Positions 31,660 to 35,367 of a stretch of 37,877 nucleotides of DNA are shown here, piece by piece. The notes below the pieces were generated by a model. That model searched no databases. It had not been told where the DNA came from and was given only the letters and a program-made list of their open reading frames with translations. The DNA is from Ignisphaera sp. (GTDB taxonomy: Archaea > Thermoproteota > Thermoprotei_A > Sulfolobales > Ignisphaeraceae), in NCBI GenBank assembly GCA_020833345.1, contig JAJHQM010000008.1, positions 1-37,877 on the forward strand, written 5' to 3'. A program made the translations under genes and the position numbers. Numbering within the stretch: position 1 is the first letter of the stretch; every line of letters begins with the position of its first letter.

Positions 31660-32403
31660 TTAAGATTCTTTTGCCCAAAGTGATGTCATCTTTGACCTTC
31701 TAATTCTCCTCATTTCTCTTTCTAAATACTTATATACTGTAGAGTGTTGCCTTCCCTCTATGAGCATCAATATTGCATCTTTAGCAGCGTTAGCACTTTC
31801 ATAGTCTCCAATTATGGCGACATAATCGTCATAAATGGATATGTAGGTACCAGTCATTTCCTCTATGTTCCTTCTAGCTTTTCCTTCTTCACCAATGATC
31901 CTACCCTTAACTCTTGTTAAGTGATTTTCGCTAGGAGGGACATACTGCTTCAAATCTATTACTATTAGTACTTGATCTTCATCGAGAAGCCTAAATGCTC
32001 GTTCTGGTGAAAAGCCATAGCCTATTGCTGTAACTATGTCTTTTGCCTTCATCATGTCTACAGCTCTTGTTTGAGGGCCTTGAGGCTCTATAATAACAGT
32101 GCCATTTACTTCATCTACTGTTATTAGAGTTTGGGTTTCTTGCATTAATTGCTTTAGAACCTCTCCTTTCTTACCTATAAGCACGCCCACCCTCTCTAAG
32201 GGGATCTTAATATAGAATTTTGTAACTCCTGGAACTAAACGACTTTGTATTCTTGTATTTATGTTTGTAAGGCTGCCTTGCGTTGTAGAAGAGGTAGAGG
32301 AATTAGATGCAGTGCCTTGTACAGAATTCTTTACATGTTTTTCATTGACCAACTTTGATACACCGCACCAGGTTTTCTTTACGCTTAACCACAATTTAAG
32401 CAT
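31660..32403 (-). CDS. KH-domain ribosome biogenesis protein (archaeal Dim2/Pno1-like)
   Basis: Two KH domains are visible: VLIGKKGEVLKQLMQETQTLI (about 92-112) and GRIIGEEGKARRNIEEMTG (about 185-205), the second followed by the typical YISIYDDYVAIIGD. Archaeal Dim2 homologues bind the 3' end of 16S rRNA with Rio1 and Nob1 during small-subunit maturation. About 60 N-terminal residues are low-complexity (SSTSSTTQGS) and unlike the family, so the true start may lie downstream. The rio1 gene is just upstream on the same strand, the usual archaeal order. A ~265-base gap follows, with no further gene before the tRNA. Confidence 0.87.
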   Translation of the reverse strand: MLKLWLSVKKTWCGVSKLVNEKHVKNSVQGTASNSSTSSTTQGSLTNINTRIQSRLVPGVTKFYIKIPLERVGVLIGKKGEVLKQLMQETQTLITVDEVNGTVIIEPQGPQTRAVDMMKAKDIVTAIGYGFSPERAFRLLDEDQVLIVIDLKQYVPPSENHLTRVKGRIIGEEGKARRNIEEMTGTYISIYDDYVAIIGDYESANAAKDAILMLIEGRQHSTVYKYLEREMRRIRRSKMTSLWAKES

Positions 32404-32438: not shown

Positions 32439-33278
32439 CTATTCTTCAGACGTTTCAACTAGTGTTTGTAGCGCTTCTTCATTCTTACTTATAATATTTT
32501 GGTATATTCTCTCTACAGACGGGGTTTTCAACTCGAGCTCCTCCCTAAAGAACCTTACAATATTGTTGATATCTCTGTAGAGAAACATGTGTGAATTAGG
32601 GTGTTCAAGCTTTACAGCCTGACTCACATCAATTATGTAGACTCTGCTACTGTGAAACATTACATTGTATTCACTCAAATCCCCATGAACGAGCCCCGCG
32701 TACCAGTACATTCTATAGACGTTTCTCATAATCTCCTTAAAGATTTGCAAAGCATTATCAGCATTCAGAAGCCCCATCGTGACAGCCTCTTTAAGTAGAG
32801 GTGCTCTTACACTATTTTCACCTATGAACTCCATCACTAAGACATTTCTGTGGACGCATACTGGTTTTGGTACAGAAACACCTGCTTCATACATTTTTTT
32901 CAAATTTGAAAACTCCTTTCTCGCCCATACAGACATGAGTTTATGCGTGGGTAAAGAAAGTATCCATTCATACCTTGGGTCTCCCTTTAAATACCTCCAA
33001 ATACCCTTCTTAAACTCTGCTGTAGCCGTTAAATATATTTTCACAGCAACATCTACATTATTCTTACCCTTTGCCAAATACACTCTAGCCTCCTTGCCAG
33101 CAGATATAACGCCATAAAGCTTAGCTATACACCCCCTTCGTTTAAGTTCAAGCAATGCTAACACCGTAGCCCTATCAAAAACTTCTTCAACAGTTTCAAA
33201 AAGATCCTCATCCTTAATCCTAGGCTCTTTCAATCTCCTTTTAAGTTCCCTATCAACACTCTTTTCAATATCTTCCAT
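32439..33278 (-). CDS. rio1: RIO1-type serine protein kinase
   Basis: A 279-residue kinase with ISAGKEARVYLA (modified P-loop), VAVKIYLTATAEFKK (catalytic Lys and the flexible-loop region), VHGDLSEYNVM (catalytic loop) and YIIDVSQAVKLEHP (metal-binding Asp and the Rio1 signature). Rio1 releases late assembly factors from the pre-40S/30S subunit. The N-terminal helix set (EDLFETVEEVFDRATVLALLELKRRG) is typical. It lies between aIF1A and the KH gene, 35 bases before the latter. Confidence 0.93.
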   Translation of the reverse strand: MEDIEKSVDRELKRRLKEPRIKDEDLFETVEEVFDRATVLALLELKRRGCIAKLYGVISAGKEARVYLAKGKNNVDVAVKIYLTATAEFKKGIWRYLKGDPRYEWILSLPTHKLMSVWARKEFSNLKKMYEAGVSVPKPVCVHRNVLVMEFIGENSVRAPLLKEAVTMGLLNADNALQIFKEIMRNVYRMYWYAGLVHGDLSEYNVMFHSSRVYIIDVSQAVKLEHPNSHMFLYRDINNIVRFFREELELKTPSVERIYQNIISKNEEALQTLVETSEE

Positions 33279-33382: not shown

Positions 33383-33706
33383 CTAAGGGGCTCTTTCTAT
33401 AAACTCTTTTGTTATCATGTTCATTGATATGAGTTTCTTTACTTCGTCCTTGCTATACTTATACACAATATCACCTTTTGTATTCTGAAATTCCCAAGGT
33501 TCAACAAGCACCACATCACCACTAGCAAACCACACCCTTCTTCGGAACTTTCCAGGTATTCGGCAAATTCTTGAAACACCATCAATGCATCTTACTTTTA
33601 GAAAATCTGCCCCAATGGTCTCATCCACAACACATAAAACCTGGTTCCCAGTAGGCACTACAAGCTCTTTAGAAGTGGAGCTCTCAGTTTTTTTCTCCTT
33701 TGGTAT
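33383..33706 (-). CDS. eif1A: Translation initiation factor aIF1A, probably starting at an AUA codon
   Basis: The core (GADFLKVRCIDGVSRICRIPGKFRRRVWFASGDVVLVEPWEFQ, quoted in parts as GVSRICRIPGKFRR and GDVVLVEPW) is the eIF1A OB fold that promotes initiator-tRNA binding and scanning or start recognition. The track start (GTG at 33658) gives 91 residues and removes the basic N-terminal tail. In frame upstream, ATA at 33706-33704 begins IPKEKKTESS, which matches the MPKK-type start of archaeal homologues and gives 107 residues, the usual length. GGGTGAG lies six to seven bases before it, and a TGA sits three codons upstream with no ATG, GTG or TTG between. The gene is in the aIF2beta-nmd3-rio1 operon. 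Confidence 0.8.
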   Translation of the reverse strand: MPKEKKTESSTSKELVVPTGNQVLCVVDETIGADFLKVRCIDGVSRICRIPGKFRRRVWFASGDVVLVEPWEFQNTKGDIVYKYSKDEVKKLISMNMITKEFIERAP

Positions 33707-33760
33707 GGATTCTCACCCTCTCTTTACATAGCTAATTCACTCAGAACTTAATAAGTCTAC

Positions 33761-34621
33761 TTACCTTTTTCCTATTCTATACTTAGATAAGTTTCGTGAA
33801 AGATCAGCAAAGTGTACCTTACTTATATTACCACTGCCATCTCTTAATACAAGCCAGGTTCCATCAAAAGATTCTACGGTATATGGAATTCCGCTTATAA
33901 TGATATAGTCACCAGCTTTAAAATTCAGTATCCTAATAGAAACGTAAAGTCTGGAAACCCTTTGCCCACTTGAAGTCCTCTTAACATCGCCATGAGATTC
34001 TACAACTTTTACTGCACGCCACTTTCTCTTAGCAGCCTCAACAATACGTTTTGTTAGTGATGCGTCGAGTAACTGTATGTCATAACCATTTTTAACAGGC
34101 TTGACTTCTTTAATCCACTTTTCAAACTCTTTTGCTATGCTATTGACAAAATCTTCTATCTCTCTATCAGCATTTACGTATCGTAATTGTATAACTGCAC
34201 TATGGCTCCCACCGACAATTTTCTTGCAAAGTGGGCAGAGAGAAGCTCTCCAGGAAACCATAACCATAACTGTATGTGAAATTTTTACCTCTTCCAGCTT
34301 TCCAAGAATGTTTATAGCTGCTGGAGAATCCTCGTATGGCGTAAATGTAACATCGATATCCTCTAGTGTAAATTCTTCTGAAGGTTTTAATAACTCTATG
34401 AAGAAATCTTCAATAACATCTTTAAGCTCTTCTAAGCTCTGTACGTAAATCCACTTTCCATGAACTCTTACTCCTCCACATATTCTGCAGTACCCTATCT
34501 CTACAGAACGAGGTCTGGTTACAAGCCCCTTAATCTCTATATAGCACCTTGGGCATAGCCCCTTGATTATGGGTGTTGATTCAGACTCTTCAACACCACA
34601 ATTCACGCAAAACTTCTTCAA
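33761..34621 (-). CDS. nmd3: NMD3-like ribosome export/maturation protein (archaeal)
   Basis: A 286-residue protein with the NMD3 zinc-binding array: CVNCG and CPRCY (residues ~4-25), then CRICGG (~46) and SLCPLCKKI (~152-158). A C-terminal OB/beta domain (KAGDYIIISGIPYTVESFDG) follows. Eukaryotic Nmd3 binds the large subunit; the archaeal protein is thought to act in late 50S assembly. Its start overlaps the DUF424 stop, and it is followed by aIF1A after about 54 bases. Confidence 0.87.
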   Translation of the reverse strand: MKKFCVNCGVEESESTPIIKGLCPRCYIEIKGLVTRPRSVEIGYCRICGGVRVHGKWIYVQSLEELKDVIEDFFIELLKPSEEFTLEDIDVTFTPYEDSPAAINILGKLEEVKISHTVMVMVSWRASLCPLCKKIVGGSHSAVIQLRYVNADREIEDFVNSIAKEFEKWIKEVKPVKNGYDIQLLDASLTKRIVEAAKRKWRAVKVVESHGDVKRTSSGQRVSRLYVSIRILNFKAGDYIIISGIPYTVESFDGTWLVLRDGSGNISKVHFADLSRNLSKYRIGKR

Positions 34622-34938: not shown

Positions 34939-35367
34939 CTATACAGGCCTCACATAAGTTATTGCTCCACAGGCTAAGCATCTTATATACCACTTCTTTC
35001 CCTCTCTAATCAGTTCAGTATCATAGCTTTGACATGTGGGGCACTTAACGTAGGACTCAAGAAATCTTGCATAAAGGTCTTGAATGCTTTTTGCTGAAAT
35101 GCGCTTGTATATAACCATGTTATTGTCTGGTCTTAGGGCACCTGGTGCTCCAAGTTCTTTTAGTAAGAATCTCATTACTATTCTCGGGTCTCTTCTAAGC
35201 CTTTCACTAACAAAACTAAGATTCTTTACAACTGTGTGCTCACCCTCATACTCTACCTCAAGCTGGGGTATGTCATAGGCTTTTGCTACTCCTCTCTTTG
35301 GCAGCTTTTCAATTGCTCTATTTAAGAGGTAATCATAATTGTAAAGAATAGCTGTATCGCTCTGCAA
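34939..35367 (-). CDS. eif2b: Translation initiation factor aIF2, beta subunit
   Basis: A 142-residue protein with the N-terminal helix (YDYLLNRAIEKLP), the central domain (LRRDPRIVMRFLLKELGAPGAL) and a C-terminal zinc ribbon (CPTCQSYDTELIREGKKWYIRCLACG), all as in aIF2beta. With the alpha and gamma subunits it delivers Met-tRNAi to the 30S subunit. The start is TTG with AAAAAGGTG ten bases upstream. It heads the translation operon and is divergent from the methylthiotransferase gene. Confidence 0.95.
   Translation of the reverse strand: MQSDTAILYNYDYLLNRAIEKLPKRGVAKAYDIPQLEVEYEGEHTVVKNLSFVSERLRRDPRIVMRFLLKELGAPGALRPDNNMVIYKRISAKSIQDLYARFLESYVKCPTCQSYDTELIREGKKWYIRCLACGAITYVRPV

Follow-up and report, generated by a model that had tools for sequence, protein, structure and literature searches.

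The genes of translation initiation factors can themselves carry poor starts. In bacteria, the infC gene encoding initiation factor IF3 starts with ATT in E. coli and with ATC in Streptomyces, and IF3 represses non-canonical starts and autoregulates infC (PMC5472188). The same factor represses the GTC start of the Streptomyces gene sigR (PMC5472188). In eukaryotes, eIF1 is autoregulated via an AUG placed in poor Kozak context, and eIF5 via upstream open reading frames (uORFs) of poor context (PMC3434475). For archaea, the starts named in a review are AUG, GUG and UUG (PMC7531240); a literature search found neither a published AUA start in archaea nor an account of aIF1A starts, an absence that is weak since subscription papers lay outside its coverage.

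In order to illustrate how an archaeal locus compares with these systems, we highlight the aIF1A gene found in a stretch of 37,877 nucleotides from an Ignisphaera genome (1.3 Mb, 94% complete, 102 contigs), hereafter the window. Read from an ATA codon, the coding sequence (33383..33706, minus strand) yields 107 residues, which comprise a basic N-terminal tail, PKEKKTESSTSK, and an OB-fold core; translation, Pfam and a homologous tail and core in all 18 genomes of the family support this reading. The Pfam search matched PF01176 at residues 21-83 over the whole profile (1-64), with an E-value of 1.6e-23 and 82.6 bits against a cutoff of 30.2. The gene is an ordinary aIF1A of the eIF-1a/IF-1 family, which shares the short basic tail of archaeal proteins of this kind, and differs from them in its start codon alone.

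The minus strand reads GAGAGGGTGAGAATCC ATA CCA AAG GAG AAA AAA, and the frame begins TGA GAA TCC ATA CCA AAG GAG, with the translation ESIPKEKK and onward. The first-pass annotation of this DNA had placed the start at AUA, which agrees with the conservation described below (ATA at 33704..33706, minus strand), and it had pointed to the lysine-rich codons following this ATA, upstream of the first canonical codon, which are present as it described them. The Shine-Dalgarno motif that it considered well spaced is GGGTGA at 33713..33718 (minus strand), with 6 nt between GGTGA and ATA. It had also taken an in-frame TGA as the upstream boundary of the frame; this stop does close the frame, at 33715-33713, but it is part of the GGGTGA motif itself and not merely upstream of it. 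The first canonical in-frame codon is a GTG at 33656..33658 (minus strand), and its open reading frame of 91 residues lacks the basic tail, which precedes the core only if the gene is read from ATA. As had been claimed, translation of the window found no ATG, GTG or TTG between the in-frame TGA and this GTG.

About 45 nt before the ATA, a putative TATA-like element, CTTATTAAG, can be read from the sequence (33747..33755, minus strand), and similar T/A-rich TTATAAG blocks occur at a like distance in relatives. The gene lies in a cluster ordered aIF2-beta, small gene, NMD3, aIF1A, RIO1 and KH protein, all named members being on the minus strand. Upstream are an NMD3 family protein (33761..34621; PF04981, E 7.2e-35) and, further away, aIF2 beta (34939..35367; PF01873 at G000:C30:34963-35283). 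Downstream are the RIO1 kinase (32439..33278; PF01163, E 4.4e-58) and a KH-domain Krr1/Pno1-like protein (31660..32403; PF00013, PF21800 and PF22891). RIO1 starts with ATG in the window and with CTG or ATA in some relatives: a CTG adjoins the aIF1A stop, as TAG CTG or TAG CTA CTG, in G008, G009, G003 and G010 (L009, L013, L014, L015), and an ATA overlaps it, as TAATA, in G018 and G038 of another family (L029, L030). This layout suggests termination-reinitiation on poor codons.

All 18 genomes of the GTDB family (taken to be Ignisphaeraceae) that were compared contain aIF1A, and ATA stands at the homologous position in 17 of them, far more often than chance would give; this count, like the order-wide ones given below, comes from phylogenetically non-independent genomes and does not represent independent trials. 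The exception, G012, has ATG. In the 17 ATA genomes the codons that follow encode [A/P/S/V][K/R/D]-rich tails, and the tail is basic in all 18 (4-8 K/R). A Shine-Dalgarno motif lies 4-7 nt before the ATA in each of the 17, as GGTGA in 16 and as GGTGG in G001, and neither form precedes the ATG of G012. The closest named record with the same ATA start is Ignisphaera sp. RSNS13 (JAPWTX010000025.1). The first-pass annotation had held that relatives with no conserved tail would speak against its proposal; relatives have instead kept the ATA as well as the basic tail.

In a FastTree phylogeny of NMD3, aIF1A and RIO1, G012 branches outside the ATA clade, between this clade and the other families. Since the 17 ATA genomes lie on one side of G012, the simplest history is that ATA arose once and was lost in none of the 17 lineages, which represent four genera. 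Across the family, identity at the four-fold degenerate third bases of aIF1A averages 0.34 (range 0.10-0.66), and conserved isoleucines elsewhere in the gene mix ATA, ATT and ATC. In most pairs of close relatives, differences between tail codons fall mainly at the third position, the pattern of a translated sequence. With only 34% identity at four-fold third bases, sequencing error and recent ancestry are excluded as causes of the shared ATA; an error of sequencing or assembly at this codon is also ruled out by its occurrence in 17 separate genomes. Set against the four-fold identity of 0.34 and taken together with the tree, the 17 of 18 genomes with ATA indicate that the non-canonical start of aIF1A is conserved by selection, and the comparison leaves us nearly certain that the AUA start is real.

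Translation could instead begin at a canonical codon, either at the downstream GTG, which exists in frame and would give a tail-less protein, or, in some genomes, at an upstream codon. In five relatives a canonical codon is indeed present in frame, a few codons 5' of the ATA (ATG in G014, GTG in G015, G016 and G001, TTG in G017), and these five would for this reason not prove an AUA start by themselves. Twelve genomes, however, have no canonical codon between the upstream stop and the ATA, and three of them, G008, G009 and G011, also lack one before codon 24, 23 and 47, respectively, so that a canonical start would there delete part of the conserved core. The position of the downstream codon is moreover not conserved, whereas the basic tail is, and we regard initiation at a canonical codon as highly improbable. 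Two isoforms, a long one from AUA and a short one from GTG, were rejected for the same lack of conservation of the downstream codon. A special initiator tRNA for AUA was likewise rejected, as the tRNA set of the related complete genome G010 is standard: it includes one initiator-like tRNA with anticodon CAU, one elongator tRNA for methionine, a third CAU tRNA that is probably Ile2, and no UAU tRNA. Autoregulation by a conserved leader RNA structure was also considered and dropped, given that no consensus fold was found around the start (-60..+60, 18 genomes; z-scores scattered around 0) and the aIF1A leader had no Rfam match.

Beyond the family, the aIF1A starts of 83 genomes from ten other families of the order, assigned per genome by eye from the basic tail and then retrieved by script, are TTG in 43, ATG in 19, CTG in 11 and GTG in 10. 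The codon is family-specific, with TTG in 13 of 13 genomes of family f11 and CTG in 5 of 6 of family f7; the family of Sulfolobus appears to use TTG. Not all CTG cases are equally clear: two of the 11 (G078, G124) are ambiguous, as an ATG directly precedes the CTG, and in five (G023, G025, G052, G061, G065) a canonical codon lies within the Shine-Dalgarno motif or close to it; those of G042, G050 and G060 are clean. The established archaeal start-fidelity factor, aIF1, starts with ATG in 46 of 46 genomes of the order, so the possibility that its gene too has a poor start was rejected. Its value as a control would be weakened if, as is possible, aIF1 transcripts have short leaders on which only AUG can serve as the start.

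Start codons at large were surveyed in 373-473 orthologue pairs of two Ignisphaera-type genomes, G005 and G010. Among the aligned canonical starts of conserved genes, ATG accounts for 124/186 and 152/186 (67-82%), and 43 of the 62 non-ATG starts of G005 are ATG in G010, so weak starts normally turn over fast and aIF1A is an exception. Out of 473 pairs (G005 contig 1 against G010), aIF1A alone combines an aligned ATA with a Shine-Dalgarno motif in both genomes and the lack of a canonical start. A looser scan gave a few other likely non-canonical starts, mostly present in one genome only and amounting by inspection to roughly 2% of 373 pairs. Selection for a weak start at aIF1A is well supported by these comparisons.

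The few other non-canonical starts, together with the CTG and ATA starts of RIO1, suggest that the initiation system of this lineage is somewhat permissive, which makes general permissiveness a genuine rival: AUA and CUG would be readily accepted, and aIF1A would be one of several genes that have drifted to such starts. Besides the 2% of pairs, this reading can draw on MBF1 with CTG in four genomes, on RIO1, which has CTG in four relatives and, in another family, ATA in two genomes, on NusA with ATA in G010 and on TtuA with ATA in G005. The other non-canonical starts are, however, mostly not conserved, in keeping with the 43 of 62 non-ATG starts replaced by ATG between the two genomes, whereas 17 genomes keep the ATA of aIF1A and the bias of this gene towards weak codons extends to families that use TTG or CTG. 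Drift in a permissive lineage is in our view improbable as the whole account of the aIF1A start.

How, then, does this gene compare with the systems described at the outset? Like infC, aIF1A is an initiation-factor gene with a conserved start other than ATG, GTG or TTG (ATA in 17 of 18 genomes, several of them with no canonical alternative), and in infC the product rejects its own codon and limits its own synthesis. Unlike infC, it does not encode an IF3 homologue but a member of the eIF-1a/IF-1 family, homologous to IF1 (PMC6412873), its codon is AUA, and the functional counterpart of IF3, aIF1, has ATG here; the likeness to infC is thus one of mode of action only. With eukaryotic eIF1 it shares a poor start on a start-selection factor, which in eIF1 provides feedback on stringency. 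The weakness lies there in the context of an AUG, whereas here a non-AUG codon is apparently rescued by a Shine-Dalgarno motif, in a gene homologous to that of eIF1A. The conserved non-canonical start of sigR, which is used for regulation and is misannotated by gene finders, also resembles the present one, but sigR is bacterial and a target gene, not an initiation factor.

We consider autoregulation of aIF1A through its AUA start, in the manner of bacterial infC, to be the best explanation of these observations, with an even chance of being correct and with an uncertain sign of the feedback. As G010 has a standard CAU initiator-like tRNA and no UAU tRNA, the usual CAU initiator would decode AUA despite mismatched (C-A) pairing at the third base, and the strong Shine-Dalgarno motif would hold the mismatched tRNA in place. 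The poor start would be kept by selection throughout the lineage and, more weakly, throughout the order, where TTG or CTG would replace AUA. AUA would be accepted more or less readily according to how stringent aIF1, aIF1A and aIF2 make initiation, which could provide homeostasis: a fall in stringency would raise the output of aIF1A and high stringency would lower it, the presumed sign being that of bacterial IF3. The order-wide bias towards weak starts (TTG, CTG, ATA), the ATG of aIF1 in 46 of 46 genomes and the strong Shine-Dalgarno motif that always accompanies ATA lend this loop indirect support. The autoregulation of infC and of eIF1 provides precedents, and the more dynamic state of the 30S complex when aIF1 and aIF1A act jointly (PMC6237735) also speaks for it.

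Several points weigh against it. The factor established for fidelity in archaea is aIF1, whose gene starts with ATG here, and not aIF1A; non-canonical starts at RIO1, MBF1, NusA and TtuA also mean that weak starts are not unique to aIF1A. The loop may moreover not be a negative one, since the basic tail of eukaryotic eIF1A favours codon-anticodon pairing, so that more aIF1A could raise the use of AUA and give positive feedback; for the archaeal tail, such a role has been posed as a question (PMC6412873). The P-site tRNA of Pyrococcus abyssi is stabilised by aIF1A alone with the ternary complex; when aIF1 is also present, aIF1A renders the complex more dynamic (PMC6237735). This opposite behaviour with and without aIF1 means that published biochemistry leaves open the sign of any effect of aIF1A. 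Discrimination against non-canonical starts has been published for aIF1, and for aIF1A only indirect toeprint effects (PMC6237735).

The AUA start might also be real and selected without any feedback, serving only to fix aIF1A at a low ratio to ribosomes through a poor codon combined with a strong Shine-Dalgarno motif. All of the sequence evidence fits a fixed dosage equally well, and the weak starts of the neighbouring RIO1 gene in several relatives would agree with low output of the entire cluster. A weak Shine-Dalgarno motif or promoter would suffice for this purpose, yet here the motif is strong and the codon poor, and within the family the codon stays exactly ATA instead of drifting among weak codons. 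We therefore hold fixed low dosage to be rather unlikely, though more plausible than drift in a permissive lineage, and continue to favour feedback through the AUA start.

If an essential archaeal gene has a conserved AUA start, the range of start codons known in archaea would widen, and gene finders would truncate aIF1A and so remove a functional basic tail. The choice of codon makes it testable whether aIF1A, like IF3 and eIF1, both sets and senses start-codon stringency, and whether the three domains arrived separately at feedback via a poor start on an initiation factor. We speculate, more tentatively than for autoregulation in the family, that aIF1A could be a universal stringency sensor across the order to which Ignisphaera and Sulfolobus belong, its start being kept poor as AUA, CUG or UUG according to lineage and initiation fidelity being measured and corrected via its translation. 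If so, it would be the archaeal counterpart of bacterial infC and eukaryotic eIF1, built independently on a different factor.

Other unusual starts were encountered in the same genomes. MBF1 has an apparent CTG start after a GGTGA motif in G005, G006, G007 and G010 (L169, L170, L171, L183); other relatives probably start this gene with TTG or GTG. Candidate ATA starts occur in NusA, in G010 only (GGAGGTGGTGAGAT ATA; orf10=3709), and in a TtuA-like thiolation protein, in G005 only (GGTGA AGCGCATTA ATA; L109 near 15300). In neither genome does the tRNA-guanine transglycosylase orthologue have a canonical start close to its conserved N-terminus (CFEIKEQDLAGRIG; L108 near 16670, L037 near 6740). 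The aIF1 leader, TGGGCATG(C/T)AAN..ATG, is conserved across many genomes of the family; an out-of-frame ATG within it, near the expected transcript start (L157-L165, L167), could mark a regulatory uORF for the fidelity factor. A conserved open reading frame of about 190 residues that lacks a start codon follows ATGAAGAAGTAG in G010 and G005 (L036 near 3250, L110 near 740), where a recoded stop or an unusual start is possible. Finally, a citramalate/isopropylmalate synthase-like gene of G005 (contig 1, orf5=1296) reads ATG GTG GTT TAG AAA TCC as compared with GTG GTC AAG AAA in G010, which would reflect either a TAG early in the frame or faulty assembly.
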